Positions 6,775 to 27,410 of a stretch of DNA of 27,410 bases are shown piece by piece. Positions within the stretch are counted from its first letter, which is position 1. The number at the start of each line of letters is the position of its first letter. The notes under the pieces were generated by a model, which was not told where the DNA came from, did not search any database, and saw only the letters and a program-made list of their open reading frames with translations. The DNA is taken from the IMG/VR virus record IMGVR_UViG_3300008450_000367, positions 1-27,410 of that record; one strand, written 5' to 3'. A program made the position numbers and the translations under genes. This DNA comes from a virus.

Positions 6775-6844
6775 ATCGGCTCCGCCATCGTGATAGGCAT
6801 GGAGCCTATTCGACGGGGTGTGGCGGAATGGAAAGGAGGCCAGC

Positions 6845-7732: not shown

Positions 7733-7929
7733 CGCCCCGCCAGCTCCAGGTGCTCGACGCGATCCGGTGGCTGACGGCCGACCGCGGCTTTCCGCCGACG
7801 CTCCGCGAGGTCGCCGACCGGATCGGCACCATCCCCAACAACGTCCACCAAATCGTCGTCAGGATGCGGCGCGACAAGCTGGTGGAGTGGGACGCCCACA
7901 AAAGCCGGACGCTGCGAGTTGTGTCGTGA
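7729..7929 (+). CDS. LexA-type winged-helix DNA-binding domain, no protease domain
   Basis: A 66-residue protein that matches only the N-terminal DNA-binding domain of LexA. MTPRQLQVLDAIRWL is helix 1, GFPPTLREVADRIGT is the conserved GxPPTxxEIA segment, and NNVHQIVVRMRRDKLVEW leads into the wing. The self-cleaving S24 peptidase half is absent and no remnant follows. GTG 7729 overlaps the stop of the replication gene, and its own stop overlaps the next GTG. It could be a stand-alone repressor that cannot respond to RecA by cleavage, or a replication accessory factor. The domain call is strong, the role inferred. Confidence 0.85.
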   Translation: MTPRQLQVLDAIRWLTADRGFPPTLREVADRIGTIPNNVHQIVVRMRRDKLVEWDAHKSRTLRVVS

Positions 7930-8198
7930 AGTTGTGCAATCGCTGCAACGCCGAGAAGGAGAGCAACGCGATATGCGAAAATTGCGGGTGTCCAGAGTTC
8001 CGAACGGAAACGAGAGAAGTGCAGTTGAGCATCCCGTTCACTACACGTCGCACCCGTCCGGCGTCGAGTGCATCACGGTCGCCGAAGCCTTCAACTTCAA
8101 CGTCGGCAACGCGATCAAGTACCTCTGGCGGGCCGGCCTCAAGAACGACGCGATCGAAGACTTGCGGAAAGCAGCGTGGTACGTCCAACGTGAGATAG
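7926..8198 (+). CDS. Zinc-ribbon ORF overlapping the DUF3310 gene
   Basis: GTG 7926 overlaps the LexA-like stop (GTGA) and opens a frame whose first 30 residues form a convincing zinc ribbon, with cysteines at 4, 7, 17 and 20 (CNRC...CENC). From about residue 35 the frame becomes Ser/Arg/Thr-rich and reads like the shadow of the overlapping DUF3310 frame. Either a short zinc-ribbon protein carries a meaningless tail, or the ribbon is joined to DUF3310 by a -1 shift (frame of 7926 to frame of 7973). The N-terminal part is probably expressed; the C-terminal part is doubtful. Confidence 0.45.
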   Translation: MKLCNRCNAEKESNAICENCGCPEFRTETREVQLSIPFTTRRTRPASSASRSPKPSTSTSATRSSTSGGPASRTTRSKTCGKQRGTSNVR

Positions 8199-13273: not shown

Positions 13274-15075
13274 GTGCGATGCAACTGACCGCCGACTTCA
13301 CGATCAAGGCCGTCGAGGGCGAGGCTCCCGCCTCCCCGACGTTTGAGTTGGTCGCGTATACGGGCCGGGCGATCCGGCAGTCGTGGAGCCGCAACCCGAT
13401 CGTGGTTGACCTGGCCGGGATGGATACCTCCCGCCAGGCCGTGCCGATCCTGTGGGGCCATGACGCCAGCCTGGATTCGGTCCTCGGCCAGAGTTCCAGC
13501 GTGACCAACGACGGCCAGGCGCTCACGCTCGCCGGCGAGATCATCGGCGAGGGGCCGGTGGCCGACCGCGTCTTGTCGCTGTCCCGCAAGGGTCTGCGGC
13601 TGCAAGCGAGCATCGGGGCCGACGCCGGGCGGATCGAGAACATCGCCCCAGGCGAAAGCGTCACGGTCAACGGCCGGGAGTTCACCGGGCCTGTGTCAGT
13701 CGTCCGAGCCTCGTCACTTCGCGAGGTGTCGATCGTCCTGTTTGGTGCGGACGCCAATACGTCCGCCGCTATCGCAGCGGATGCGAATGAGGGTGCGAAT
13801 ATGGCGGAGTCCGCCAACGACACGCCCGTCGAGGCCACCGTGCCGCAGACGGAAGCCCCGGCGATCGTCGCCGTGGAGTCGCCCGCTGTCGAGAAGATCG
13901 ACGTGGAGGCTGTGAAGGCCGAGGCCATCAAGGTCGCGAGGGAAGCCGTCCTGGCCGAGATTCGCGCCGCCCGGCCAGCCGCTCCGGCGGTTCACGTCGT
14001 GGAAAGGATCGACGGCCCCGCGGTCGTTGAGGCGAGCCTGTGTCTCGCCGGTGGCCTGCCCGACGTGGAGAAGCGTTTCGACCAGCGGACCCTCGAGGCC
14101 GCCGGGAAGAACCGCGGCGTTTCGCTCGGTGAGGTGCTGATCCAGGCCGCCCGTAGCAACGGCTACGACGGTGGCAACCGGATCACGCACAGCAACCTGC
14201 GGACGATCATGGCCACGGCGTTCGCGACCCACGCGATCTCCAACGTGCTGGCCGCGACCTACGGGAAGTTCCTGCTCGCCGGCTTCAACGCCGTCGAGGC
14301 GACGTGGGACGCGATCTCGTCGGTCCGGTCGGTGAGTGACTTCAAGGCCGTGACCGGCGTTCGTCTGAACGGCGGTTTCGAGTACGAGGAGGTCGCAAAC
14401 GGCGGCGAGCTGAAGTCGGCCGACGCGAGCGACGAGAAGCGGACGATCCAGGCCAAGACCTACGGCCGGCTCACGAGCGTGACCCGTCAGGACATCATCA
14501 ACGATGACCTGGGTGCTCTCTCGGCCGTCCCGCAGCGCCTTGGTCGCGGTGCCGCGATCAAGCTCAACAAGGTTTTCTGGGCAGAGTTTGAGTCGAGCAA
14601 CTCGACTTTCTTCGCCAAGGAAACCGCGGGGGCCGGCAACGCCCTGCAGCTCTCCTCGCTGAAGACGGCTGCGTCGTCCTACCGGAAGCTCCAAGACCCC
14701 GATGGCAACCCGCTCGGGATCGCCCCGTCGATCCTGCTGGTGCCGCCGGAGCTGGAGATTGCCGCGGCCGAACTGATGAGCGGTTCGCTGCTGATTACCG
14801 GCGAAAACGCCACCCGCACGAACGCCAACGTGCTGGCCGGCCGGTATCAAGTGGTCAGCTCGTCCTACCTCACCAGCGGTTCGACGTGGTGGCTCTGTGC
14901 CAACCCCGCCGATCTGCCGGCGATGGAGGTCGCGTTCCTCAACGGTCAGCGTCAGCCGACCGTGGAGCAGGCCGAGGCCGATTTCAACACCCTCGGCATC
15001 ATGATGAGGGGCTACTTCGACTTCGGCGTGGCCAAGGCCGAGAAGAACGCGGCCTACCGGATGGCGACGGCTTGA
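13270..15075 (+). CDS. Fused prohead protease and major capsid protein (gpT-like)
   Basis: A single 601-residue frame joins capsid maturation protease and shell protein. Residues 1-165 resemble HK97-type S78 protease, with His64 (ILWGHDAS) and Ser114 (LRLQASIGAD) at nearly the same positions as HK97 His65 and Ser114. Residues ~185-240 are an acidic/alanine helical spacer (VEAVKAEAIKVAREAVLAE) that could act as an internal scaffold. Residues ~255-601 resemble Mu gpT-like major capsid protein (RTIMATAFATHAISNVLAA, SVSDFKAVTGVRL, GRLTSVTRQDIINDDLGAL). The gene overlaps the portal by ATGA. A strong 13-bp-stem hairpin follows. The protease presumably frees the capsid protein by self-cleavage near the spacer. 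Confidence 0.9.
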   Translation: MSAMQLTADFTIKAVEGEAPASPTFELVAYTGRAIRQSWSRNPIVVDLAGMDTSRQAVPILWGHDASLDSVLGQSSSVTNDGQALTLAGEIIGEGPVADRVLSLSRKGLRLQASIGADAGRIENIAPGESVTVNGREFTGPVSVVRASSLREVSIVLFGADANTSAAIAADANEGANMAESANDTPVEATVPQTEAPAIVAVESPAVEKIDVEAVKAEAIKVAREAVLAEIRAARPAAPAVHVVERIDGPAVVEASLCLAGGLPDVEKRFDQRTLEAAGKNRGVSLGEVLIQAARSNGYDGGNRITHSNLRTIMATAFATHAISNVLAATYGKFLLAGFNAVEATWDAISSVRSVSDFKAVTGVRLNGGFEYEEVANGGELKSADASDEKRTIQAKTYGRLTSVTRQDIINDDLGALSAVPQRLGRGAAIKLNKVFWAEFESSNSTFFAKETAGAGNALQLSSLKTAASSYRKLQDPDGNPLGIAPSILLVPPELEIAAAELMSGSLLITGENATRTNANVLAGRYQVVSSSYLTSGSTWWLCANPADLPAMEVAFLNGQRQPTVEQAEADFNTLGIMMRGYFDFGVAKAEKNAAYRMATA

Positions 15076-15497: not shown

Positions 15498-15539
15498 GGG
15501 CCGCGCGGCCGCGGGACAAACCCGTGTGCCGCGCGGCCC
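15498..15539 (+). terminator. Long hairpin after the decoration gene
   Basis: GGGCCGCGCGGC (15498-15509) pairs perfectly with GCCGCGCGGCCC (15528-15539). The intervening loop contains a second small stem CGGG-ACAAA-CCCG (15512-15524). There is no T-run. It begins 7 bases after the decoration stop and ends 15 bases before the next ATG. Confidence 0.5.
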
Positions 15540-15554
15540 GGTGGCGGAACGACC

Positions 15555-15929
15555 ATGCAGGACATGATCGCCAAGGGTGCGTCGTGGTTCGATCAGCAAC
15601 GCAAGAAGCATCTTGCGGTGACGGTCGAGTACCAGGCCACCGGCACCATGTTCACGAAGTCGTTCCCCGCCACGATCGGCATGAGCCGCTGGGATTCCAT
15701 CGACGCCAGCGGGCAGATGATTCGGTTTGAGACTCGTGACTACTTCGTGAGCGTGGACGAAATGCGAGACAATCCCCGCCGCGGCGATCGCATCCACGAA
15801 ACGGACGCCACTGGCGTCCGCCGCACCTACGAGGTGATGGTGCCAGGCGGTGCCAATAACCCGTGGTCGTGGGCAGACCGCGGCCAGCGGATTCGCAGGA
15901 TTCACACGCAGCTCGTGGAGAGTGACTGA
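15555..15929 (+). CDS. Head-tail joining / head completion protein
   Basis: A 124-residue protein. The segment [23 protein letters not shown], a gap, then [19 protein letters not shown] and RRIHTQLV follows the pattern of small head-tail adaptors of the lambda FII/gp10-neck kind: a beta barrel with a GDRI turn and a conserved tryptophan near the end. It lies directly after the decoration gene, where head completion genes are found. ATG 15555 follows a GGAACG-containing leader. Its stop shares a base with the first collagen-like gene start. Confidence 0.65.
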
Positions 15930-16876
15930 TGCCGTTTTTCAGCATCTCGTCGCCGTCGAGCGGCAACGCGACCCAACTGCAGGGGCAACCGATTGCGGCG
16001 ACCGCCCCGGCGACCGGCACCGTTCTGACCTACTCTGGTTCCGCATGGGTAGCGTCCACGGGCGTGACGGGGCCGACCGGCCCCAACGGTGCGGACGGCC
16101 CGAAGATTTTCTCGGGCTCCGGTGCGCCGTCCAACGCCCTCGGAGTGAGTGGCGACTTCTACCTCGACGTGGCGAACTCGTACCTTTATGGTCCGAAAGC
16201 GTCGGGATCGTGGGGAGCGGGTATTTCGATCCAGGGCGGTCCGACCGGCCCGACCGGAATGGCAGGGGTCGCCGGGAGTACCGGAGCTACCGGCCCGTCG
16301 TCCACCGTCTCCGGGCCAACCGGCCGGACGGGCCCGACGGGATCGACCGGCCCGGCGTCGAGCGTGACGGGGCCGACAGGTCAGACGGGCCCAACGGGGA
16401 TCACCGGGCCTCGAGGCTTTACGGGCCCGACGGGTGCGGCATCAACCGTTACGGGACCAACGGGAGCTATCGGCCCAACGGGCAGCATCGGCGTCACCGG
16501 CCCCTCGGGAGGCCCGACGGGGGCGACAGGCAGCGCCGGACCGACCGGCCCCTCCGGCGGCCCTACGGGGCCAACCGGAGCCGGAGCGAGGGCCGGGGCC
16601 AACGCCGAGACCTTGGCCGGAAACAAGACGCTCACCAGCGCGAGCGAGCGTTACCAATTTCTCTACCCAGACGGCTCCAACCGGATCGTGACGCTCCCAA
16701 GCGGGCCAGCGAACGGCCTCGACTTCATCATCGTGGAGACAGAGGGCGGCGGCTACGACCTCCAGGTGCAGGCCGCCGACTCCACGCCAGTAGCCGACAT
16801 TGGGCTGACGCAGACCTACCGCAACGCGCTGGTCGTGTGGGACGGGTCGGTCTGGCAAGTGCTCAACTACGGGTAA
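15929..16876 (+). CDS. Collagen-like virion fibre protein 1
   Basis: A 315-residue protein. Residues 1-45 form a conserved head ([36 protein letters not shown]). [17 protein letters not shown] module follows at about 72-88. Residues ~105-225 are Gly-X-Y triplets dominated by Gly-Pro-Thr, interrupted by short GPSSTV/GAASTV-type breaks. The C-terminal ~85 residues are a globular beta-rich tip ([35 protein letters not shown]). The triplets should form a trimeric collagen-like rod that displays the tip. The many Thr in the third position resemble Bacillus BclA, whose GPT repeats are O-glycosylated. Expressed in the structural operon, so probably a head or tail fibre. Confidence 0.85.
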
Positions 16877-16882
16877 GAAACC

Positions 16883-17758
16883 ATGCCATTCTTTTCCATC
16901 AGCACGCCATCGTCCGGCAACGCTACGCAGCTCCAGGGCCGCAGCGTTTCGGCGACCGCACCGGCCACCGGGGCCGGGCTGTTTTGGAATGGCACGGCCT
17001 GGGCACCGGGCAACGGCACGACGGGACCGACTGGTGCTCCCGGCGTCGATGGCGCCAAGTTCTACAGCGGCTCCAGCGGCCCGTCGTCGGGGTTCGGGAA
17101 CAGCGGCGACTTCTGGCTCGACACGAATAGCGGCGTCCTCTACGGGCCGAAGGCCAGCGGCTCGTGGGGGTCCGGCCTGCAGCTCCAAAGCGGCCCGCAG
17201 GGACCGACGGGAGCACAGTCCACAACGCCAGGCCCGACCGGACCCACGGGGGCCGCGAGCACCGTGGCGGGGCCGACGGGCAGCGTTGGTGCCACCGGGC
17301 CGTCCGGCCCGACCGGGTCCACCGGCGTCCGCGGCGCCACGCTCCTGGCCGGCAGCGGCGCCCCGCTCAACAACTACGGCGAGAACGGCGATTGGTACAT
17401 CGACACTGCAGGGGCCGATTTTTACGGCCCCAAGGCCGGCGGGACGTGGGGTTCGCCCACGATCGACCTCCTGGCCATTACCGGGCCTTCTGGCCCGACC
17501 GGGGCCGCGAGCAACGTCGCAGGGCCGACCGGCCCAACTGGCGCCGTTGGTGCCACTGGTGCCGTCGGCGCTGCTTCGACCGTCACGGGGCCGACGGGAA
17601 GCGTCGGACAGACGGGTCCGACCGGAGCGCAAGGCATCCAAGGCAGCACTGGCCCCACGGGCGGTAATGGTTCAGCCGGAGCAACGGGTCCGACGGGCGT
17701 TCTCCCGGTGAATAGCGAAACAGCACTCAACCTCTACCTCTGGAGCACCTTTCGATAA
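16883..17758 (+). CDS. Collagen-like virion fibre protein 2 (paralogue)
   Basis: A 291-residue paralogue of the preceding protein, with an almost identical first 30 residues ([19 protein letters not shown]). It has two copies of the GDFW/YxD...YGPK module (about residues 73-90 and 170-187), where the first protein has one. Two Gly-Pro-Thr blocks follow these modules. There is no globular tip; it ends soon after the second block with [11 protein letters not shown]. Six bases separate it from the first gene and its stop overlaps the next ATG. Tandem duplication followed by tip loss or exchange is the simplest history. It may form mixed or alternative fibres. Confidence 0.85.
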
Positions 17759-18141
17759 TGGCTACTTCGCCAGCATTTGCCGTCACGCCGCGGATCGCGT
17801 CCGTCAACATCGCCACCGCGAACACCAATCGCGACGGCACCGGAACGGTCGCCACGCTCATTACCGGCGCGGCCACCGGAACACGAGTTGCGGAAATCGT
17901 CATCAAGGCCCGTGTCACGACGACCGCGGGCCAGGTCCGCGTGTTTCTGCACGACGGCACGACGTTTTACTTCTTTGATGAAATTGCCGTCGCGGCGGCG
18001 ACTGTGTCAAACAGCGTCCAGGGCGTCCGCGTCAGCACGTCCTACGCGAACTTGATCCTGCCGTCCGCGTCGTGGTCGGTCCGTGTCTCGACGCACAACG
18101 CCGAATCCATCGACGTGACGGCGCTCGGGGCGGATTTGTGA
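17758..18141 (+). CDS. Putative virion surface protein, beta-rich
   Basis: A 127-residue protein rich in Thr, Val, Ala and Ser, with alternating hydrophobic strands (VAEIVIKARVTTTAGQVRVF, TTFYFFDEIAV). It probably forms a beta-sandwich. It is coupled by overlaps to the collagen-like gene before it and to the gene after it, so it likely works with them as a fibre or baseplate accessory. No family can be named from sequence alone. Confidence 0.65.
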   Translation: MATSPAFAVTPRIASVNIATANTNRDGTGTVATLITGAATGTRVAEIVIKARVTTTAGQVRVFLHDGTTFYFFDEIAVAAATVSNSVQGVRVSTSYANLILPSASWSVRVSTHNAESIDVTALGADL

Positions 18142-19064
18142 ACGCCGGGATTCTAGCGCAGGTGCGGTCGCCGATGCCGACGCCCTACGGGTTGCTCGGC
18201 TCCGTGACGCCGGTTCCGTCGCCTGGCGTTTCGCTCCACCCCGAGGCAGTTGATTGGGCAACAAGGGTGGTCGCTAACGGCGGAAGCCCTGTGGCGCTGC
18301 CCGTTCTGTCTGCCGTGAGCGTCTTCTGCCACCGCGTAGATGCCGCGGCGTTGCGTCCTTTGCTATGGAGGGTCAATCTGCTTGCGGGCGACTCTCTTGC
18401 ATCATCGTTGGTTCCATTGTTTCGCTCGCCGACGCCGTTCGGAACTGTGCAGGGAAATGCTACCGACACGGCCGAGAACTTTGTCAGTTCCGACTACGTC
18501 GCCGCGTCAGGATTGCTCGGAAACGGCAGCAATAAGAGATTGCTAACCGGCCTGCCGTTGAACTTCTCTCCTGCGAGGCACCTTGGAGCGTTTATTCACA
18601 CCCTTGGAACGACGGCGTTTCGGACGTACATCGGAGCGGCTGGCGCGACCTTATTCGACGGATTACTGTCGCTGCAGTGCGACTCTCCGACAACCGTATG
18701 GCGAATGGAAAACACGCGAACTACCGCAGAAGGAGGAAGCGCTGGAGGCACAACCTCCGGGGTTCACTCAAGTGGAGACTTTGTGCTTGCGAGCTCTGCG
18801 GGAAACAACATCTTCGGCAACATTGTTCACTCGGGAATGTATAGGAACACGACGCGCGTCGGTTTTCCCGCCACCGCCAGTGTAGCCGGCGCCGTGTCTA
18901 CCGGAATAGCGATTTTCGCCTACCAGCTATCGGCAGGAACATTTGCAGGACACAGCAACGCTCGCATTGGCGGATATTCACTTGGGTCGCACTTGCTGTC
19001 AGACCAATGCTTGGCATACGCGGTGATCTGGGACGCACTGCTTCGCGCGCTGGGGCGACGATGA
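18138..19064 (+). CDS. Putative tail fibre / receptor-contact protein
   Basis: A 308-residue protein starting at GTG 18138 (overlap with the previous stop). After ~40 residues comes DWATRVVANGGSPVALPVLS, then CHRVDAAALRPLLWRVNLLA, and a beta-rich, Ser/Gly/Thr-rich body (FVSSDYVAASGLLGNGSNKR, TSGVHSSGDFVLASSAGN). I recall this arrangement from surface-exposed phage and planctomycete proteins beside collagen-like genes, but no function is established. The coding DNA is less GC-rich (about 53% in a sampled stretch) than the head genes, as often seen for exchangeable receptor-binding genes. Confidence 0.6.
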   Translation: MNAGILAQVRSPMPTPYGLLGSVTPVPSPGVSLHPEAVDWATRVVANGGSPVALPVLSAVSVFCHRVDAAALRPLLWRVNLLAGDSLASSLVPLFRSPTPFGTVQGNATDTAENFVSSDYVAASGLLGNGSNKRLLTGLPLNFSPARHLGAFIHTLGTTAFRTYIGAAGATLFDGLLSLQCDSPTTVWRMENTRTTAEGGSAGGTTSGVHSSGDFVLASSAGNNIFGNIVHSGMYRNTTRVGFPATASVAGAVSTGIAIFAYQLSAGTFAGHSNARIGGYSLGSHLLSDQCLAYAVIWDALLRALGRR

Positions 19065-19369
19065 AACTGTCCGACATTTCGCTACCGATGCCATACGAGC
19101 AGGCCCGCGAATACGGACTTGTGTTTTCCGCGCCGTTGGCTGAACGGTTAGCGGAACTCCACCATAAATACGGGTCTCCAAACTGCGTCCCGGTAGCGAG
19201 CCGGCTGGTTGACGGCCGGTTCGCGTTGTGTGCAGACGTGCTGACGGAAATCGGTCCCGGCGGCCTCCTGGCCGCCATGTGGGCCGCCGCCGACAAGGCC
19301 GTGCTGCTCGCGAGCGTGGACGTGCTGCCATGGCATGAAGTCACGGCCCTCCTGCCGCCGGAAACCTAG
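19061..19369 (+). CDS. Small protein of unknown function
   Basis: A 102-residue protein beginning MKLSDISLPMPYEQAREYGL. The middle (CVPVASRLVDGRFALCADVL) and C-terminal half (LLAAMWAAADKAVLLASVDV) suggest an alpha/beta fold. ATG 19061 overlaps the preceding stop. A 47-bp gap containing a GTGTAC-type leader follows. It is the last gene before the glycan cassette. No domain is recognised. Confidence 0.6.
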   Translation: MKLSDISLPMPYEQAREYGLVFSAPLAERLAELHHKYGSPNCVPVASRLVDGRFALCADVLTEIGPGGLLAAMWAAADKAVLLASVDVLPWHEVTALLPPET

Positions 19370-19416
19370 GGCAAACCCATCTTGCCGCGTGGTGCGGATG
19401 GTGTACGGTTGTTCCC

Positions 19417-20448
19417 ATGATCGAGCATCTTCACGGCGTGGCCGTCCACGCCTACTACTGCGGCGAGATGGAAGCCGGCCGCCGGGCGTGTGAAGCCCTT
19501 CTGCGGAAGAAACTGCCGGACGGCATGGAGCACGTCGTGCGTAGGAATCGGACGTGGTACACGCATCGGCTCGAGGAGTTGGCGAGCACGCGATTCCGCC
19601 GGATAGACGTGGAGCCGGCATTTCCTGGGTGGTCGCTGTTCAATCCGTCGATCATCGCGGAAACGTCCGGCTGGATCGTGAACGTCCGTTCCAGCAACTA
19701 CCGCATCGTGGAAGGTCGGTACGAGATGCCGCCGGAGGATAACGGCGTCATCCGCACCGAAAACCTCCTCGTCACGCTGGACGACGACATGGCCCCCACC
19801 TACGTCGAGCGGATGCCGGCCGCCTACGAGCGGACGGCTTTCCCGGTGGACGGGCTCGAGGACGTGCGGCTCAACGAGGTGGACGGCCGGCCCCTGCTTT
19901 CGGCCACCGTGCGAAACTTTGCCCCCTACGACGGGACGTGCCGCATCGGCGTCGGGTATTTCGATAGCATCCGCTGCCATCCCACGGGCGAGCGGCACGA
20001 AAAGAACTGGATGCCGATTCTGGGGCGGGCCCGGTGGCTCTACGCCTGCAACGATGGCGGACAGGTGGCCACGGTCGCGGAGCATGATGGGGCATGGCTT
20101 GTCGAGCGTCACGCCCCTTCCCCGCATATCGCGGCCGGCTTCCGCGGCGGGTCGCAGCTCGTCCCGATCGGCGGAAGCCGGTGGCTCGCCCTCATTCACG
20201 AGGTCGCCGAAGACGACGGAAAACGCATCTACGAGCACCGATTCGTGGAGTTTGATTCGGAAGCCTCGTGGGCGATCACGGGTATTTCGATGCCGTTCGC
20301 GTTCCTTGAGACGCGAGCGATTGAGTTTGCGGCCGGTCTGGCCCGCCGTGGCGACCGGCTCGTGGCGAGTTTCGGCGTCCGCGACGCCGAAGCCTGGATC
20401 GTGGAGCTGACGGTTCCCGAGGTCCGCAACCTCCTGACGCGACCATGA
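19417..20448 (+). CDS. Five-bladed propeller glycosidase/phosphorylase-like protein (GH43/GH130-type)
   Basis: A 343-residue protein. After a short helical N-terminus (YYCGEMEAGRRACEALL), residues ~75-335 show propeller-like blade repeats: LFNPSIIAETSGWIVNVRSS, RTENLLVTLDDDM, GLEDVRLNEVDGRPLLSATV, FRGGSQLVPIGGSRWLALIH and TRAIEFAAGLARRGDRLVAS. The recurring NPS / EDVRL / GGS pattern is that of five-bladed glycan-acting proteins of the GH130/GH43 kind, often found fused or adjacent to glycosyltransferases. Catalytic acids cannot be assigned with confidence. It opens a five-gene overlapping set with a methyltransferase and glycosyltransferases, consistent with making or trimming a glycan. Confidence 0.6.
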   Translation: MIEHLHGVAVHAYYCGEMEAGRRACEALLRKKLPDGMEHVVRRNRTWYTHRLEELASTRFRRIDVEPAFPGWSLFNPSIIAETSGWIVNVRSSNYRIVEGRYEMPPEDNGVIRTENLLVTLDDDMAPTYVERMPAAYERTAFPVDGLEDVRLNEVDGRPLLSATVRNFAPYDGTCRIGVGYFDSIRCHPTGERHEKNWMPILGRARWLYACNDGGQVATVAEHDGAWLVERHAPSPHIAAGFRGGSQLVPIGGSRWLALIHEVAEDDGKRIYEHRFVEFDSEASWAITGISMPFAFLETRAIEFAAGLARRGDRLVASFGVRDAEAWIVELTVPEVRNLLTRP

Positions 20449-20999
20449 CCATTACGCTCCGTACCTTCGACCGAGCAAAAACCCTGCTAGAAGCGAACTG
20501 GCGGGAGCACGATTGGTTTTTCTGCGACCAGGCCGTGATTGGCCACTACGCGATGAAAGCGGCGATTTGTGAGCGGTACAACCCGCGCCGCGTCATAGAG
20601 ATTGGGACGCGGTGCGGCTACTCGCTGCTCGTGTTCAACGCCGTTGCCCCGCGGGCGTCCTTCTTGTGCATCGACGGGTGCATGGACGACGATTCGCTCG
20701 ACTGCCTGGCCCACGCCAAGGCGCTGATCCAGCGGCACCAAATCGACGCGGAGCTGGTGATCGTTGATTCCCACGCGATCAAGAGTTTGCCCCCGGCCTG
20801 CTTCGCCCACGTTGACGGGGATCATTCCTACGCAGGAGCCCTGGCCGACCTTCGGCTCGTGGCACACTGCCGCGCGATCCTAGCCGACGACGTGTGCAAC
20901 CCAGAGGTGGCCAGGGCCGTGGACGTTTTCGCCCGTGAGGCCGGCCGCACCGTGGAACTCATCAACGACGGCCTGCGTCGCGTGGCGGTGCTGACATGA
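20445..20999 (+). CDS. Class I SAM-dependent methyltransferase (Methyltransf_24-like)
   Basis: A 184-residue Rossmann-type methyltransferase. Motif I is RRVIEIGTRCGYS (48-60), the acidic end of strand 2 is FLCIDG (73-78), and AHVDGDHSYAGAL (121-133) is the DGDHSY segment typical of Methyltransf_24/cephalosporin-hydroxylase-like enzymes, which methylate sugars or small molecules. ATG 20445 overlaps the previous stop (ATGA), and its end overlaps the next start. In this context an O-methylated sugar is a plausible product. The fold is confident, the substrate inferred. Confidence 0.8.
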   Translation: MTITLRTFDRAKTLLEANWREHDWFFCDQAVIGHYAMKAAICERYNPRRVIEIGTRCGYSLLVFNAVAPRASFLCIDGCMDDDSLDCLAHAKALIQRHQIDAELVIVDSHAIKSLPPACFAHVDGDHSYAGALADLRLVAHCRAILADDVCNPEVARAVDVFAREAGRTVELINDGLRRVAVLT

Positions 21000-21619
21000 G
21001 CGTGGCAGTTGTCACCGGCTACGTCCCGCTGCCGTGCGACCACCGTTCGGCAGACGACTACGCTGCACTTGGGTCGCAGCTCTTGGCCCTGTGCGGGAAG
21101 TCCTTGGCGTTCCGCCAGCCGCTCGCGGACTGCTGGATGGCGAACTGGATGGCCGATGCCGGCATGGCGGTGGAGCCGGGCGGCAAGGACACGGCCGCAT
21201 ACCATGCGGTCCAGCACGAGAAAAGCCGGTGGATCGCCAGGGCGGCCGGGGCGATGGAGGCCGAAACGCTGGTCTGGATCGACTACGGCCTGCTCCACAA
21301 CCGGAAGATTCATCCCATCCACGTTACGCAACTGCTCGAGGCCGTGGCGGCCACGCCACCGACGCGGATCGTGTCGCCGTCTTTCGGGGTGCAGTCTCCG
21401 GCGCCGGACCGCATCAACTGGACGTTTCTTGGAACGATCCTGGTCGTCCCCCGCGCCCTGGCGTTCTGGTTCCATAGCAACGTCTTAGACGCGGCCACCA
21501 ATCCGCCGACCTGGGAGGTCAACACCTGGGCCACGGTCTACCGGCAGAATCCCGACAACTTCTTCCTCTACGGAGCCAATCACGACGAGACCATGTTCAC
21601 GAGGTACTCGTCATGGTGA
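20996..21619 (+). CDS. HtrL/YibB-like putative glycosyltransferase
   Basis: A 207-residue protein. TLVWIDYGLLH (91-101) is the (V/I)WxDxG-type segment characteristic of HtrL/WlaTC proteins, in which an aspartate motif precedes a Leu/His-rich helix. NPDNFFLYGANHDETMF near the C-terminus resembles the later conserved part of that family. The protein is shorter than typical HtrL (~270-300 aa). It overlaps both neighbours in the cassette (ATGA at 20996, 7 bases at 21613). A sugar transfer role is inferred mainly from context. Confidence 0.5.
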   Translation: MSVAVVTGYVPLPCDHRSADDYAALGSQLLALCGKSLAFRQPLADCWMANWMADAGMAVEPGGKDTAAYHAVQHEKSRWIARAAGAMEAETLVWIDYGLLHNRKIHPIHVTQLLEAVAATPPTRIVSPSFGVQSPAPDRINWTFLGTILVVPRALAFWFHSNVLDAATNPPTWEVNTWATVYRQNPDNFFLYGANHDETMFTRYSSW

Positions 21620-22278
21620 GCATCATCGTCACGGCGTTCGGCGAGCCGGGAAACCGCTACGCACAGTTCACCGCCAGGTGGTGGGCGGCCGTCCTGTCCA
21701 TGCTGCCGGCCCCGGCCGAGGTCGTCGTCGCCCATACCTGTCCCGAGCCGCTCGGTCTGCTGCCGGGCCCGGCCACCGTCCGCACCGTCGCCGTGCCGTG
21801 CGTCAAGCCAGACGTTGTTTCCATGGTCAACGCTGCCGTCGAGGCCGCAACGCAGCCGTGGGTCAGCGTCATTGGCGTGGACGACTGCTATACGCCAACG
21901 GCCTTGACGGATTTGGTCAAGGCCGACGCCGCTGGGGCGGAGATTCTGGTGTGGCATCAGCGGGAGGTCGGGAGTCACGTCTGGAATTGCTACTGGAACC
22001 CCGACGTACTTCAGAGGGCCAATACGCTTGCCGGCTCCTGCCCAGTACGGCGGGATTTGTGGCTGCGGGTGGGCGGGCCGCCCAGAATCGCGTGGTCTGA
22101 TTGGGGGTTCTGGCTGCGGTGTGCGAAAGCCGGTGCCACGGCCTACCAAAGCGACGTGGTGGGCGTCGATTTCGACGCCGGCCGCGGCCATGCCACGTTC
22201 AGCGGGTCGGCCACGTTCGAGCAGCTCGCCGCCAGGGACGCCGAGGCACGGGCGTTCGCCATGGAGTTGTTCCTGTGA
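21613..22278 (+). CDS. GT-A type glycosyltransferase-like protein
   Basis: A 221-residue protein starting MVSIIVTAFGEPGNRYAQF, the usual nucleotide-sugar-binding first strand of GT2-like enzymes. VVSMVNAAVEAATQPWVSVI leads to GVDDCY (88-93), the DxD-type metal site. SCPVRRDLWLRVGG and WSDWGFWLRCAKAG are the common acceptor-side pattern (new item, then ED/SD-WG). ATG 21613 overlaps the previous gene's last codons. The fold is likely, the donor and acceptor unknown. Confidence 0.7.
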   Translation: MVSIIVTAFGEPGNRYAQFTARWWAAVLSMLPAPAEVVVAHTCPEPLGLLPGPATVRTVAVPCVKPDVVSMVNAAVEAATQPWVSVIGVDDCYTPTALTDLVKADAAGAEILVWHQREVGSHVWNCYWNPDVLQRANTLAGSCPVRRDLWLRVGGPPRIAWSDWGFWLRCAKAGATAYQSDVVGVDFDAGRGHATFSGSATFEQLAARDAEARAFAMELFL

Positions 22279-23330
22279 AAATCGGCATCTACGCACTAGC
22301 GAGGAACGAAGCCGCGAACGTCACGGCGTGGGAAGCCTCGTGCCGCGAGGCCGACGTGCGGGTCGTCACCGACACGGGCTCGACCGACGCGACGGTGGAG
22401 TTGCTCCACTCCGGCGGCGTGGAGGTGGCCCACGGGGCACCCGTGCCGTGGCGGTGGGACGATGCCCACAACCTGTCGCTCTACCATCTGCCGTCCGACG
22501 TGGACGTGGCCATCCGGCTCGACCTGGACGAAGTCCTCGACCCAGGATGGCGGGCGGCCCTCGAGGCCGCGTGGCGGCCGGAAACGACGAAAGGCCGCTA
22601 TTGGTATCAGTGGTCCGAGAACGTCCGATTCCTGTCCGATCGCGTCCATCTGCGGGCCGGCTACCGTTGGGTGGGGGCGACGCACGAGGGTCTGGCCTGC
22701 TGGAGTGGCGACGAGGTGCAGACGCAACTCGACGGGTTCACGATCCGGCATCACCGCCAGCCAGGCAAGACCCACAAAAGCGACCTGACGCTGCTCCGCC
22801 AGGCGGTCCGCGAGAATCCCCTGGACACGCGGATGCACTGGTATCTCGCCCGCGAGCTGGACTATGCCCGCGACGCCGAGGCCGCCGAAGCCTTTGAGAG
22901 ATACCTGGCCATGCCAAACGGGGCGGCCACCGAGCGGGCCTATGCCTGCCGGATGCTGGCAAAGCTCCAGCCGGACCGTGCCAAGCCGCGGCTTCTGGAG
23001 GCCATCATGGCGGCCCCTCGCGAGCCGGAAGCGTTCCTGGCGTTCGCGGAACTGGCCGAGAAGATGGGCGATTGGGTGTCGTGCCTTTATTACGCCCGCC
23101 ATGCTGCGTTCTGCCCAGCGCATAGCCAAAGCCACGCAAGCGATCCACGGGCCTACGGGGCCGCTGCCCCCGACCTGGCCTGCATCGCTGCGTCCAAGCT
23201 GAACCTCACGTCGGAAGCCCTGCAGCACGCCCGCGAAGCGTTCAAGCGGTGCCCAGGAGATCAACGTCTGGCGGCGAATCTCGCCATCCTCGAGCAACAG
23301 TCCCAGGAGCAAGGCCCGCGGGCCGCATAG
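22275..23330 (+). CDS. Family 2 glycosyltransferase with TPR-like C-terminus
   Basis: A 351-residue protein. The N-terminal GT2 domain has IGIYALARNEAANV, DTGSTDAT (33-40) and the catalytic metal motif LDLDEVLD (82-89), then WYQWSENVRFLSDRVHLR and WVGATHEGL. Residues ~185-345 are helical repeats of TPR character (MHWYLARELDYARDAEAAEA, EAFLAFAELAEKMGDWVS, AREAFKRCPGDQRLAANLAI). GT2-TPR enzymes commonly glycosylate proteins or extend glycans, with the repeats holding the acceptor. GTG 22275 overlaps the previous stop. This is the clearest glycosyltransferase of the set and the last gene of the cassette. Confidence 0.88.
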   Translation: MKIGIYALARNEAANVTAWEASCREADVRVVTDTGSTDATVELLHSGGVEVAHGAPVPWRWDDAHNLSLYHLPSDVDVAIRLDLDEVLDPGWRAALEAAWRPETTKGRYWYQWSENVRFLSDRVHLRAGYRWVGATHEGLACWSGDEVQTQLDGFTIRHHRQPGKTHKSDLTLLRQAVRENPLDTRMHWYLARELDYARDAEAAEAFERYLAMPNGAATERAYACRMLAKLQPDRAKPRLLEAIMAAPREPEAFLAFAELAEKMGDWVSCLYYARHAAFCPAHSQSHASDPRAYGAAAPDLACIAASKLNLTSEALQHAREAFKRCPGDQRLAANLAILEQQSQEQGPRAA

Positions 23331-23332
23331 TC

Positions 23333-23803
23333 ATGCCATCCGTCGCAGTCGAGATCGCCGAAGCCCTTGCGGATGGATTGTCCGCGTACACGTTCTCGCC
23401 GCCATACGAGTCGATCACGGCTCGTCGGCTCTATGTGCCGGACTACGAAGGGCCGGACCTACGCACCCTCAAGGTGTCGGTGGTGCCGGGTACGATTGAG
23501 AGTGAGCGGTCGTCGCGTGGCCAGGATTTATTCACGCACGAAATCGACGTGGTCATCGGCAAGCTGGTGGACGGGTCCAACGCGGAGATCGACGCCCTGA
23601 CGCGGCTGGCCGAGGAGATCATCGACGCCATCCGCAGCAACGTGCTAACCATGCCAACCATGCCGGAGAACGCACTGTATTTCGGTGCCACGATGGCCAC
23701 GACGTTCGACCGCGATTCCCTGACTGACCGGAGAGTATTTCTGTCGCAAATCAGCGTCACCTACCGGGTGCCGCGAGATCACTCTACGCCCACGGGACCG
23801 TAG
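23333..23803 (+). CDS. Tail terminator-like protein
   Basis: A 156-residue protein: N-terminal helix VAVEIAEALADGLSAYTF, central strands (RTLKVSVVPGTIESERSSR) and HEIDVVIGKLVDGSNAEID, then a helix LTRLAEEIIDAIRS. This matches the alpha/beta pattern of phage tail terminator proteins (lambda gpU-type), which cap the growing tail tube. It returns the operon to standard structural order right after the glycan genes. ATG 23333 lies 2 bases after the previous stop. Structural homology is inferred from length, pattern and place. Confidence 0.55.
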   Translation: MPSVAVEIAEALADGLSAYTFSPPYESITARRLYVPDYEGPDLRTLKVSVVPGTIESERSSRGQDLFTHEIDVVIGKLVDGSNAEIDALTRLAEEIIDAIRSNVLTMPTMPENALYFGATMATTFDRDSLTDRRVFLSQISVTYRVPRDHSTPTGP

Positions 23804-23804
23804 C

Positions 23805-24569
23805 ATGGCAATCTTTCCGACCGGCAACCTGTTCCCCGGCCTCGGCAGCGGCTTCCGCATCCCCGGCGTTGCCATGCGGGCGAGTGTGAAAAACTTCTTT
23901 GACCGCGACGCGGTCAAGAACGCGCTAAGCGAAATGGAGTACCGGGCTCTTTCGAAGGGCTCCATGCGGATCAAGGATCACGCAAAGCGGTCGATTCGCA
24001 AGATGGGCATGGCCAAGCCCAAGCTGAAGGTCATGCGGCAAAACCCCAACATGAATCTCCGCCAGGCCGCAGCCGTTCCCGGCCTCACGGCGCGGACGCG
24101 ACGTGCCATCGAAGCAAGGGCACGCGAGATCAAGACGCGGCCGCCGTCGTCACCGGGGACGCCACCGCACACGCACGTTCCATACGGCCATATGCTCGGG
24201 TTTCGACGCAATCTCTGGAACTTCTACGACCCGATCAGTCATTCGGCCGTCGTCGGACCGTCGCAGAAGGGCAAGATGCTGCCGTACCTTCATGAGTTCG
24301 GCGGGACGCAAATGCTTGCGACGTGGCAATACGTCCCGCAGTACCCACGGAAATACAACCCGATTTTTTGGCGTCTTTCCGTTGGCCAGAAGCCGCGAAA
24401 CACCGGAAAGTGGGTGGATGCCGGACACACGAGCCGCGCGACGTACCCAGCACGTCCGTTCATGCAGCCAGCCATGCGGAGGGCTATCGCTCGGGGCGAC
24501 CTGGCGAAGCCCTTTGGAGGCCAATTCAAGGCTGCGATCGGTCCGCGCGCCGGCTTCGGCAACCTCTGA
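23805..24569 (+). CDS. Minor tail / neck protein (HK97 gp10-like)
   Basis: A 254-residue basic protein. RALSKGSMRIKDHAKRSIRK near residue 55 and TSRATYPARPFMQPAMRRAI near the C-terminus match the pattern of HK97 gp10/lambda Z-like proteins, where an ARPF motif precedes the last helix. The protein is longer than typical gp10 (~130-150 aa) because of a central insert with PPSSPGTPPHTHVPYGHMLG. ATG 23805 begins one base after the previous stop. It is followed by a 59-bp gap with the regulatory box at 24574. Confidence 0.65.
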   Translation: MAIFPTGNLFPGLGSGFRIPGVAMRASVKNFFDRDAVKNALSEMEYRALSKGSMRIKDHAKRSIRKMGMAKPKLKVMRQNPNMNLRQAAAVPGLTARTRRAIEARAREIKTRPPSSPGTPPHTHVPYGHMLGFRRNLWNFYDPISHSAVVGPSQKGKMLPYLHEFGGTQMLATWQYVPQYPRKYNPIFWRLSVGQKPRNTGKWVDAGHTSRATYPARPFMQPAMRRAIARGDLAKPFGGQFKAAIGPRAGFGNL

Positions 24570-24573
24570 TTGC

Positions 24574-24607
24574 GGTATACTGACGTACAGGTGGGCGATT
24601 TCCGCCC
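24574..24607 (+). promoter_or_regulatory. Promoter-like box plus leader hairpin before the tail tube genes
   Basis: GGTATACTGACGTAC (24574-24588) contains a -10-like TATACT and is closely similar to the box at 11254-11268. Eleven bases later GGGCG-ATTTC-CGCCC (24593-24607) forms a 5-bp hairpin, followed by GGAG and ATG 24629. No convincing -35 is seen. The shared layout with the earlier site suggests one regulatory scheme for two structural blocks. Confidence 0.4.
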
Positions 24608-24628
24608 CCGCACGGAGTAACCGCCCAT

Positions 24629-25006
24629 ATGTCGGCTCAAGCCCACAAATATTTCCTCGGAAAAGACGCCTCGTTCACGTTCGCAAGCTCGATCGCCAAC
24701 AAGGACGTGAAAAGCGTCACGGTCAATCGGGAGACTGCGGCCGAGGCCGACGTGACGACCCGCGGGTCCGGAAACGAGCAGGAGTTCGCGTTCGTCCGGT
24801 CCAACACCACGATCGAGGTCGTCGTGTTGGACCACTCCGCAACCGTGGGCTCGACCGGCAGCGTCACGATGTCGCTGTCTCCTACCGGCCCGGCGCAGCC
24901 CAGCGGCACGTTCCAGGTCATGAGCATCTCGGAGCCGCAGGAGTTGGACGGCGCGATTGAGTGGACGATTTCGCTGCGAAAGACGCCGAGCACGACCGGC
25001 GCCTGA
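24629..25006 (+). CDS. Major tail tube-like protein A
   Basis: A 125-residue beta-rich protein: YFLGKDASFTFASSIANKDV, VKSVTVNRETAAEADVTTRG, TIEVVVLDHSATVGSTGSVT. This is the pattern of small tail tube or tail sheath-fold proteins that polymerise into the tube. A related protein is encoded directly downstream. The ribosome-binding GGAG is 11 bases from the ATG, a long spacing that suggests the leader hairpin affects translation. Its own promoter-like box implies a transcript enriched for this abundant protein. Confidence 0.6.
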   Translation: MSAQAHKYFLGKDASFTFASSIANKDVKSVTVNRETAAEADVTTRGSGNEQEFAFVRSNTTIEVVVLDHSATVGSTGSVTMSLSPTGPAQPSGTFQVMSISEPQELDGAIEWTISLRKTPSTTGA

Positions 25007-25019
25007 CGCGAGGTGAGTG

Positions 25020-25397
25020 GTGCCGAGCGCATCTGACAAGTTTCGCCTGGGGCGTGACTGCGTATTCACGCTGGACGGGCAAATCCTGTCGGGTGTGAGC
25101 GACGTGACTGTGTCCCGCCGCACCCAGGAGGTCGAAGCGACCGGGTACGGGCATGGCTCGCAGTCCACGATAGTCACTCACCGGACGGTGGAATTGACGG
25201 TGTCCGTCATCAAGCCGGCGGACGCCGCCAAGCTGATAGCTGCCGAGGCCGACGGCAGCGTGGTGACGGTTACGACCACTAACGGCCTGCGGCCGTTGAC
25301 GGCCGATTTCATCGTGTGCGACTCCTCGACTGACGAGCCGCTGAACGATGCCGTCCTGGCGACATTCACCTTGAAGCAGTGGAGCCACGGAAAATGA
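25020..25397 (+). CDS. Major tail tube-like protein B (paralogue of A)
   Basis: A 125-residue protein sharing the layout of the preceding one: KFRLGRDCVFTLDGQILSGV, VSDVTVSRRTQEVEATGYGH, then TVELTVSVIKPADAAKL. SVTV/DVTVSRxTxE-A is common to both. GTG 25020 has GAGG six bases upstream; GTG 25017 is also in frame. Its stop overlaps the chaperone start. One copy may form the tube and the other cap, decorate or start it. Identity as a tail tube protein rests on place and fold pattern. Confidence 0.55.
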   Translation: MPSASDKFRLGRDCVFTLDGQILSGVSDVTVSRRTQEVEATGYGHGSQSTIVTHRTVELTVSVIKPADAAKLIAAEADGSVVTVTTTNGLRPLTADFIVCDSSTDEPLNDAVLATFTLKQWSHGK

Positions 25398-25951
25398 AGA
25401 CGTTCACCGACGTAGAGGGGCGGCATTGGAATATCCGCGGGACGCTCGGCACGTTTGAGCGGGTCAAGACCGCCACCGGCGTCGATATGCTCGACCTCCC
25501 TACGACGCAGCAGTGTCTTCGCGACATTTCGGACGTGTTCAAGCTCGGTGCCGTTCTCTACGTCGTCTGTGAGCAGCAGGCCCAGGAGCGGGGCATCTCG
25601 CCGGAGCAGTTCAGCGATTCGTTCAACGCCGACACGCTCCACGCCGCTGCCGATGCGCTAATCGAGGAGACGATTTTTTTTTGCCGGAGCGACGTGAGGC
25701 CCGCCCTCGAGATGGCCTACGAGAAGGCGAAGTTGGCGGAAAAGAAGGCAGTCGAGGTGATGCAGACGCGACTAGCAGCTCTCGGGAAGGAGATGGACGC
25801 GGCCCTGGAAAACCTATCGACCCCTACCGACTCTGTTACGAACTTGCCGGAATCATCGGCGTCCATCCCGGCGAGTGGACGCTCCGCGGCCTCGTCTGGG
25901 CGTCGGAGGCGAAACAACGCGAGCGATGGAATCACACGTCGAGCCTCGTAG
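25394..25951 (+). CDS. Tail assembly chaperone, short form (G-like)
   Basis: A 185-residue frame in the position of lambda G: after the tail tube and before the tape measure gene. The N-terminal part (VEGRHWNIRGTLGTFERVKT, YVVCEQQAQERGISPEQF) and a helical segment (YEKAKLAEKKAVEVMQTRLA) look real up to about residue 139. The remainder is Ser/Arg-rich and reads like a shadow of the other frame. Chaperones of this kind are made with a longer GT form by -1 frameshifting, and such a shift here joins this frame to 25814-26094. A 9-T run (25674-25682) also lies in the gene. Confidence 0.75.
   Translation: MKTFTDVEGRHWNIRGTLGTFERVKTATGVDMLDLPTTQQCLRDISDVFKLGAVLYVVCEQQAQERGISPEQFSDSFNADTLHAAADALIEETIFFCRSDVRPALEMAYEKAKLAEKKAVEVMQTRLAALGKEMDAALENLSTPTDSVTNLPESSASIPASGRSAASSGRRRRNNASDGITRRAS
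25807..25813 (+). promoter_or_regulatory. Predicted -1 ribosomal frameshift site (G GAA AAC)
   Basis: The heptamer GGAAAAC is read as G GAA AAC in the short frame. Slipping back one base gives the frame that continues CCT ATC GAC CCC (Pro-Ile-Asp-Pro). The short frame looks protein-like before this point and the -1 frame looks protein-like after it. It resembles but is not identical to lambda's GGGAAAG. Direct tests have not been done. Confidence 0.5.
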
Positions 25952-26094
25952 CGCAGCAGTATTCAATCCACCGCGATCCCAAAAAGCGACCGAAACCGTA
26001 TCAGCCGCACGAGTTCAACCCCTTCCACGAAACGCCGGAAGTTAGACCCAAGCTGATAACGCCCGAAGTCTTCCACGAACTGTTTGGTGAATGA
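25814..26094 (+). CDS. Tail assembly chaperone, frameshift extension (T-like part)
   Basis: This -1 frame encodes about 94 residues after the presumed shift: PIDPYRLCYELAGIIGVHPG, then WTLRGLVWASEAKQRERWNH, HRDPKKRPKPYQPHEFNPF and LITPEVFHELFGE. It has no ATG or GTG start in its coherent part (only a TTG at 25681, inside a stretch that reads as shadow), so it is best explained as the C-terminus of a GT fusion. The segment with RDPKK and EFNPF is a common phage chaperone T-type ending. It stops 3 bases before the tape measure ATG. Confidence 0.65.
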
Positions 26095-26097
26095 ACT

Positions 26098-27410
26098 ATG
26101 GCTAGTGCTGGAAGCGTTCGGGCCGGCGCCGCGTTCGTGGAAATCTTCGCCAAGGACGGCCAGTTCCAGCGGGCGATGGCCCGCGTCCACGGACGACTCA
26201 AGGCCATTGGATCGGCCATGCAGTCATTCGGAACGAAGGCCATGCTGGCCGGGACGGCCGCCGGGCTTCCGCTAGTCCTGGCCGCCCGGCAGGCCGCCGG
26301 GTTTGAGGACGCCCTTCTCGGGATGCGCGCGGCCGCCGGGCTGACGGCCGATCAAGTCAAGGTGATGGAAGCCGAAGCGCTGCGACTGTCCCGCGCGATG
26401 GGAGTGGCGCCGGAAAAGATCGCCAACGCGATGCTCGAGCTGGCCAAGGCCGGCATGGACGTGAAGGACGTGCTGGCAGGGGCGGCCGAATCGGCTGTTC
26501 AGTTCGCCCGCGTGTCCGGCGTCGAGATGGCAGACGCGGCCGTGTTCATGAAAGTGGCCATGAACTCGTTTGGCGTGTCTGCAGTTGAGGCAGTCGATAC
26601 CCTTTCGGCCGCTGCCGACGCATCGGAAACGTCTATTGCGGCGATGGTGGAATCATTTGCTCTCGTCGGCTCTGCCGGCGCGTTGTTCAACCAATCGCTA
26701 TTCGATATTTCGCAGGGTCTTGCCGTCCTAGCACGGTTCGGAATCCGCGGCGAGGAGGCCGGAACCGGCATCAAGACGATGCTCGTGCGGCTTACGTCGC
26801 CAAGCAAGGAGGCTCAACAGTCGCTCGCGAGGATCGGATTGTCTGTTGAGAGTTTCCGCGGAGCGGACGGAAAAATCCTGCCGCTCGTGCAGATTGTCGA
26901 AGTGCTCGAGAAGGCGCTGGTGGGCGTTGACGAACAAGTCCGCGATCAAGTCCTCACCGACGTGTTCGGCGATCGCGGAATCCGTGTCGTCGGTGCCTTT
27001 CTAAACGTCGGGACGAAAGGGTTCACGACCATGGCGGACGCCATGGAGAGCAACCTTCCGGTGGCCGCGAAGTTCCAGATTCTCATGAGCGGGTTGAGCG
27101 GGGCGTTTGAGAGGCTCGGCGCTGGGGTGCAGCGTCTTTCCATCGCGTTCGCCAAGGCGCTGGGCGATTCAGCCGGAAGTGTCGTGTCTGGTCTTGTGTG
27201 GATGATGGACGTGCTCGGAATCTTGATTCAGAAGTTCCCGCTTGCGGCAAAAGTGGTCACTGGCGTCGTGGCCGGGATGCTCGCGTTGGGGATCGCGGCG
27301 ATTGCGCGCCTGGCCCAACTTCCACCCGCTCGCGGCGCTTGGCGGAAGTCTTGTCCCCAGGAGCCTTATCCTTCGCGTTGGCGCGATCCCTGGCCCGTGC
27401 CAGGTCTCCA
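26098..27410 (+). CDS. Tail tape measure protein, TP901 family, N-terminal part
   Basis: Scaffold that sets tail length and helps DNA entry. The 437 visible residues run off the window. ASAGSVRAGAAFVEIFAKDG starts the protein, then repeated helical TP901 core segments: GFEDALLGMRAAAGLTADQV, MAVEAVDTLSAAADAS-like and GIRGEEAGTGIKTMLVRLTS. FQILMSGLSGAFERLG precedes hydrophobic helices (AAKVVTGVVAGMLALGIAA) that may span the membrane. The last ~30 residues (from about 27310) become Arg/Pro/Trp-rich and unlike the family; a frame error near the edge is possible. ATG 26098 lies 3 bases after the chaperone stop. Confidence 0.9.
   Translation, partial: MASAGSVRAGAAFVEIFAKDGQFQRAMARVHGRLKAIGSAMQSFGTKAMLAGTAAGLPLVLAARQAAGFEDALLGMRAAAGLTADQVKVMEAEALRLSRAMGVAPEKIANAMLELAKAGMDVKDVLAGAAESAVQFARVSGVEMADAAVFMKVAMNSFGVSAVEAVDTLSAAADASETSIAAMVESFALVGSAGALFNQSLFDISQGLAVLARFGIRGEEAGTGIKTMLVRLTSPSKEAQQSLARIGLSVESFRGADGKILPLVQIVEVLEKALVGVDEQVRDQVLTDVFGDRGIRVVGAFLNVGTKGFTTMADAMESNLPVAAKFQILMSGLSGAFERLGAGVQRLSIAFAKALGDSAGSVVSGLVWMMDVLGILIQKFPLAAKVVTGVVAGMLALGIAAIARLAQLPPARGAWRKSCPQEPYPSRWRDPWPVPGL

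Follow-up and report, generated by a model that had tools for sequence, protein, structure and literature searches.

Virion proteins of mycobacteriophages bear glycans, as summarized in PMC12619734 from Freeman et al. (2023). In Bacillus, the BclA-type system places glycans on a bacterial collagen-like protein (PMC8968730), and in Listeria the flagellin glycosyltransferase GmaR, with an N-terminal glycosyltransferase (GT) domain followed by a tetratricopeptide repeat (TPR) region, acts on a filament protein (PMC9638930). FlmG of Caulobacter is described in PMC7591256 as a modular glycosyltransferase responsible for cytoplasmic O-glycosylation of a filament protein. Here we analyze the 27.4 kb IMG/VR virus record IMGVR_UViG_3300008450_000367 (the window, meaning the whole stretch), in which five genes, A to E (19417-23330), lie among virion genes downstream of two genes for threonine-rich collagen-like fibers. 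We consider it probable that this cassette encodes the enzymes with which the phage glycosylates its own Thr-rich fiber proteins. The proposed acceptor would be a virion protein, as in the mycobacteriophages, a collagen-like protein, as in Bacillus, and a fiber protein modified in the cytoplasm, much as the filament protein is by FlmG.

Collagen-like fibers accompany the cassette in related phages

Both fiber genes match the Pfam Collagen model (33.0 bits for the first and 38.4 for the second, cutoff 27.2), and threonine occupies Y in 22 of 36 and 21 of 40 triplets of their Gly-X-Y runs, respectively. The original prediction, which was made from the letters of the window, described (Gly-Pro-Thr)n repeats with the cassette immediately after them; the repeats are instead interrupted Gly-X-Thr, and three small genes totaling 1.66 kb intervene.

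Close relatives of E are present in 44 viral contigs, and in about 40 contigs A and E are kept together at this position. Nearly all relatives of sufficient length have A ahead of E and one conserved tail gene after it, so that A and E sit between the fiber block and that tail gene, with B, C and D variable. A and E are the core of the cassette, B and C appear to replace one another in many relatives, and D is an extra. The survey of related phages suggested with the original prediction bore out the co-occurrence of fibers and cassette: in 24 loci the sequence reaches 2 kb or more ahead of A, and in 23 of these that region holds a Thr-rich collagen gene, with at least 10 Gly-X-Y triplets and threonine at 33-69% of Y positions. 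A later locus set added further collagen-positive loci together with two exceptions (L566 and L570). More distant relatives of E were also chosen regardless of collagen. Where 6 kb or more of upstream sequence was available (21 loci), Thr-rich collagen occurred in 16 and A in none; E is therefore the general partner of Gly-X-Thr collagen and A a lineage-specific extension.

The unrelated actinophage DSL-LC01 (L099) has an E-type gene three genes downstream of a collagen gene pair, on the same strand. A gene annotated as tryptophan halogenase (6433-8004 of that locus), shortly past the two collagen genes, overlaps the start of this E-type gene, and its product is possibly a further fiber-modifying enzyme. 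In the jumbo phages PaBG and Lu11, genes for E-like proteins lie close to tail genes, and the neighborhood has no annotated collagen. A survey based on capsid genes was left out of the statistics, its contigs being mostly short.

The association depends on threonine

Viral stretches were then chosen only by DNA coding for three copies of a particular collagen triplet and were scored with an E profile built without the scored stretches. E-type genes were found in 19 of 134 Gly-Pro-Thr (GPT) and 12 of 143 Gly-Ala-Thr (GAT) stretches, two sets that overlap, and in none of 120 Gly-Pro-Gln (GPQ) and none of 120 Gly-Pro-Ala (GPA) stretches. This scoring replaced an earlier one (25/119 GPT against 2/118 GPQ) in which the profile had included the scored loci. 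When the stretches that hold a genuine collagen run were pooled (346 in all), E became more frequent with increasing threonine fraction at Y, through successive classes (0/69, 1/73, 3/83, 5/64, 8/42 and 4/15), and E was present in 17 of 121 stretches with a fraction of at least 0.5 and 4 of 225 below it (Fisher p=1e-5). Neither GC content nor locus length accounts for the association. At 70% identity the 24 E-positive stretches collapse into 19 groups, and at 50% into 8; after strict clustering of the stretches the association has p=0.008, with a nucleotide clustering that is over-strict because the repeats cross-match (one cluster holds 81 stretches). When this blind set was searched with profiles of B, C and D, none of the three was associated with Thr-rich collagen, and the Thr-collagen signal is therefore carried by E only.

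Bacterial relatives

In bacterial genomes, relatives of A are mostly fused to GT2-TPR proteins, and the fusion types include GT2-TPR-propeller, HtrL-GT2-TPR-propeller and GT2-TPR-methyltransferase. An acidimicrobial locus (L070, 4475-7981) encodes HtrL_YibB, GT2, TPR and a GH130-fold propeller in a single chain of 1168 residues, adjoining a collagen gene. Long (GAT)n collagen genes, with threonine at 79-100% of Y positions, occur some 2-8 kb from the fusion in Mesorhizobium and Bradyrhizobium. These rhizobial loci often hold an additional GT2-TPR gene; in L073 that gene is joined to an FkbM methyltransferase.

A family-level rhizobial sample contained the propeller in only 1 of 121 genomes, and the test was therefore repeated at the genus level. 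Among 119 Mesorhizobium genomes, DNA encoding (GAT)3 was present in 28 of 28 with the propeller and 16 of 91 without it, with p=3e-16, a value that is overstated because the genomes are related. Several Mesorhizobium loci, including L073 (9038-16227, with (GAT)n at 6293-6599 on the opposite strand), L069 and L080, have giant (Gly-Ala-Thr)n collagen genes beside GT2-TPR-propeller fusions, and we found no description of these loci in the literature.

Identity of the five enzymes

All five genes have long homologous open frames in relatives and are therefore real genes rather than chance open reading frames. The original prediction called A a propeller glycosidase- or phosphorylase-like protein, and the AlphaFold model and Foldseek agree: the model is a five-bladed propeller of the GH130/GT108 fold, and its top 35 Foldseek matches in the PDB are GH130 or GH130-like structures. 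It matches GH130 mannoside phosphorylases and a mannoside synthase with probability 1.00. The motif GxEDxR, which contains the catalytic aspartate (GLEDxRL in A), aligns to Lin0857 and Uhgb_MS; its residues G146, E148, D149 and R151 are invariant in phage and bacterial members, and a second motif, HEKNWMP, is nearly or fully invariant in both. It was the predicted fold that settled A: a PDB sequence search with a narrow A profile was weak (0.05), and A has no Pfam or PHROG match and so does not pass a family sequence model. Five of 21 A relatives match the GH130-type Pfam model weakly, and the bacterial L050 passes it (31.3 against 26 bits); a phmmer search with the second propeller of L050 gave no matches.

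E was described from the start as a GT2-TPR protein, and this stood. Its motifs of the DTGSTDxT type and DxD are invariant across phage, rhizobial and actinobacterial members, and an HE motif is invariant as well. The E profile also picks up TPR proteins (1e-5 to 1e-6), and Pfam TPR_14 is below its cutoff in the E of the window. With a broad profile that combines E-type GT domains of phages, rhizobia and actinobacteria, the best match among solved structures is GmaR (2.6e-21), followed by SunS (9e-14); a narrow phage-only profile finds GmaR at 0.011. SunS is a prophage-derived glycosyltransferase that modifies the peptide sublancin.

The assignment of B as an S-adenosylmethionine (SAM) methyltransferase was upheld by a Methyltransf_24 match above the Pfam cutoff. 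C was called HtrL-like; it has a GT-A-like fold and no Pfam HtrL_YibB match, and hhalign against the HtrL domain of L070 gives a weak match (probability 11%, E 0.0026, 190 collinear columns), so that an HtrL relationship is possible though weak. Pfam and PHROG searches with C found no match and a PDB sequence search with a narrow profile was uninformative; by Foldseek, its best solved fold is the PBCV-1 glycosyltransferase of capsid glycosylation (2p72, 2p73, 2p6w), followed by other GT-A enzymes. The L043 protein, which is a different protein, was left out of the C alignment. D looks like a GT-A transferase, as had been proposed, and is more precisely GT2-like, marginally under the Pfam cutoff.

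Organization of the window

The five genes were found, as predicted, as overlapping plus-strand frames inside the structural operon. The genes run from an AAA ATPase through terminase, portal, a protease-capsid fusion, decoration and head-tail joining genes, the two collagen-like genes and the cassette to tail genes as far as the tape measure, and so the glycosyltransferase genes stand among virion genes, as is expected of phage-encoded virion glycosylation. Successive junctions from A to E are ATGA, ATGA, a 7-base overlap and GTGA, and such short overlaps fit translational coupling. A scan of 15500-26200 for one promoter type gave no consensus promoter. None of A to E has a membrane-like hydrophobic stretch (top 19-residue mean 1.39). 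Integrase and cytosine DNA methylase genes at the left end, ahead of the AAA ATPase gene, suggest a temperate phage. The 600-residue frame at 13273-15075 comprises a head maturation protease and the major capsid protein, apparently fused, and a tRNA-Gly predicted by ARAGORN at 10721-10804, within the terminase gene, is probably a false call.

Table 1. Features of the window (positions in nucleotides; pLDDT, predicted local distance difference test)
Feature	Position	Strand	Evidence or remark
Tyrosine integrase	2-736	minus	
C5 cytosine DNA methylase	1189-2451	minus	
Collagen-like fiber gene 1 (col1), 315 aa, proposed substrate	15929-16876	+	Pfam Collagen 5e-8; PHROG tail fiber
Collagen-like fiber gene 2 (col2), 291 aa, proposed substrate	16883-17758	+	Pfam Collagen 1e-9
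Small conserved protein, interval between fibers and cassette	17758-18141	+	
phrog_17104 phage protein, probably fiber or tail associated	18138-19064	+	PHROG match 2e-10
Small conserved protein directly 5' of cassette	19061-19369	+	Homologs in 11 loci
A, five-bladed propeller, GH130/GT108 fold	19417-20448	+	AlphaFold pLDDT 93; Foldseek top matches GH130
B, class I SAM methyltransferase (Methyltransf_24), proposed sugar O-methyltransferase	20445-20999	+	Pfam 33.1 bits, cutoff 26.3
C, putative glycosyltransferase, GT-A fold	20996-21619	+	AlphaFold pLDDT 87; Foldseek
D, GT2-like putative glycosyltransferase	21613-22278	+	Pfam 21.2 bits, below cutoff 23.3; PHROG glycosyltransferases
E, GT2 + TPR, GmaR-like	22275 (GTG start)-23330	+	phrog_13126 full-length, 1e-68
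Next virion-operon gene, right edge of cassette	23333-23803	+	Follows E in relatives

Proposed mechanism and alternatives

We propose that E, a soluble enzyme, would bind the fiber chain through its TPR arm, in the manner proposed for GmaR and flagellin (PMC9638930), and transfer a first sugar onto threonine at Y of Gly-X-Thr. A, working in the synthetic and not the degradative direction, would extend this sugar together with C and D, and B would methylate the sugar chain as a cap. GH130 phosphorylases can operate in reverse as synthases. A is given a synthetic role because it adjoins transferases rather than sugar uptake genes, and members of GT108 include transferases as well as phosphorylases (PMC8950772). 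The O-methylated glycan of the original prediction keeps a methyltransferase in its favor, a single gene that is absent from some relatives. The work would take place in the cytoplasm during virion assembly, with no lipid carrier, on the nascent or folded fiber; the coupling of A to E to the late operon argues for cytoplasmic work while virions are built, and the absence of hydrophobic segments likewise argues for work on the fiber in the cytoplasm. The glycan may serve triple-helix stability, shielding or adhesion.

That the cassette acts on the phage's own Thr-rich fibers, as originally predicted, draws on co-location, the Thr-dependent association, the rhizobial (GAT)n pairing, the fusions and the relation of E to GmaR. 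Several observations weigh against it. A minority of phages (L004, L566 and L570), the kind of case that had been named as refuting, keep the cassette without Thr-rich collagen upstream; the fiber of L004 is non-collagen but Thr-rich, with 28% Ser+Thr. The majority of GPT-collagen viral stretches have no E-type gene, and the actinobacterial GT2-TPR-propeller genes L053, L058 and L063 have no collagen in a flank of about 9 kb on each side, so the system is not everywhere tied to adjacent collagen. L055 is another actinobacterial gene of this kind without collagen nearby. Threonine is common at Y in bacterial collagens generally, at 31.6% (PMC8968730), and descent of a single operon could explain part of the shared location among structural genes.

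The collagen-free cases, and the loci that hold other Ser/Thr-rich fibers, leave some room for a broader form of the same proposal, in which the fiber is glycosylated but collagen is incidental and the acceptor is any Ser/Thr-rich fiber or another virion protein of the operon. We regard this form as possible but rather unlikely, since the rate of E climbs with threonine at Y among collagen-bearing stretches and the rhizobial (GAT)n pairing stands outside any phage operon.

It is less plausible still that the enzymes change a glycan of the host surface, for superinfection exclusion or serotype conversion, and owe their late-operon position to chance or regulation. This is a common use of phage glycosyltransferases (PMC10202952), PHROG and old annotations label E as a beta-1,4-glycosyltransferase or lipooligosaccharide (LOS) glucosyltransferase, and the integrase gene indicates that the phage may be temperate. 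However, A to E lack a hydrophobic segment and their ends overlap inside the virion operon, the association of E with collagen repeats depends on threonine, the same enzymes adjoin collagen in bacteria, and the closest solved relatives of E modify protein. Gtr-type serotype conversion in particular was considered and not adopted: A to E, without a hydrophobic stretch, include neither a flippase of the GtrA kind nor a membrane-anchored GtrB. Decoration of phage DNA against nucleases is highly improbable: the methylase gene makes DNA modification probable in this phage, and phage glycosyltransferases acting on DNA are known, but that gene lies 17 kb away on the opposite strand, E groups with GmaR and SunS, the cassette pairs with collagen, and we know of no link between the GH130 fold and DNA.

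Glycosylation of the phage's own Thr-rich fibers is thus the preferred explanation, and related sets beside Thr-rich collagen in many phages, and also in Mesorhizobium and other soil bacteria, suggest, from gene content, a widespread decoration of microbial collagens. A more general model, to which we give roughly an even chance, is that one O-glycosylation system, dedicated to Gly-X-Thr collagens, is common to phages and bacteria, in which a GmaR-like GT2-TPR protein primes threonine, a GH130-fold propeller, often fused to it, acts as a synthase that adds sugar to the protein-bound glycan, and GT-A and methyltransferase modules are interchangeable, the glycan partly replacing the role of hydroxyproline in animal collagen. 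Many phages have collagen-like fibers, and soil bacteria have large Thr-rich collagens, yet their modification beyond Bacillus-type spores is largely undescribed. If our proposal is true, the likely enzymes are named and the acceptor site, threonine at Y, is predicted; GH130-fold proteins would gain a role in protein glycosylation, phage genes now labeled as LOS or general glycosyltransferases would be accounted for, and the small soluble gene set would be a candidate for making glycosylated collagen in E. coli.

Comparison with known systems

Phage virion glycosylation (as summarized in PMC12619734) and BclA glycosylation (PMC8968730) are already known, and it is this enzyme set that appears to be new; we found no report of a GT2-TPR and GH130-fold set acting on collagens in a literature search that mostly lay outside subscription papers. 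In the mycobacteriophages, going by the same summary, glycans are reported on the C-terminal ends of capsid and tail-tube subunits, whereas here a collagen-like fiber is the proposed acceptor and a GH130-fold propeller belongs to the set. The BclA-type system, compared by description, operates at the spore surface, and no pair of GH130-fold propeller and GT2-TPR protein is described for it (PMC8968730).

The individual enzymes show the same mixture of likeness and difference. A shares its fold (template modeling (TM) score about 0.56) and the motif GxEDxR with the beta-mannoside phosphorylases and synthases of GH130/GT108 (5b0p, 4udk, 9eqq), from which it differs in having 11-16% identity, below the Pfam cutoff, extra N-terminal helices, its own motif EKNWMP and a genome context of protein glycosylation. 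C has its closest fold in the PBCV-1 glycosyltransferase, also a viral enzyme and one tied to capsid glycosylation, although with 11-12% identity and a TM score of about 0.55 the likeness to this chlorovirus enzyme is in fold only. FlmG, compared with E by description (PMC7591256), has flagellin as acceptor. GmaR, unlike E, has additional linker and antirepressor domains and acts on flagellin, whereas E is a shorter, phage-encoded protein that occurs together with a propeller and with collagen.

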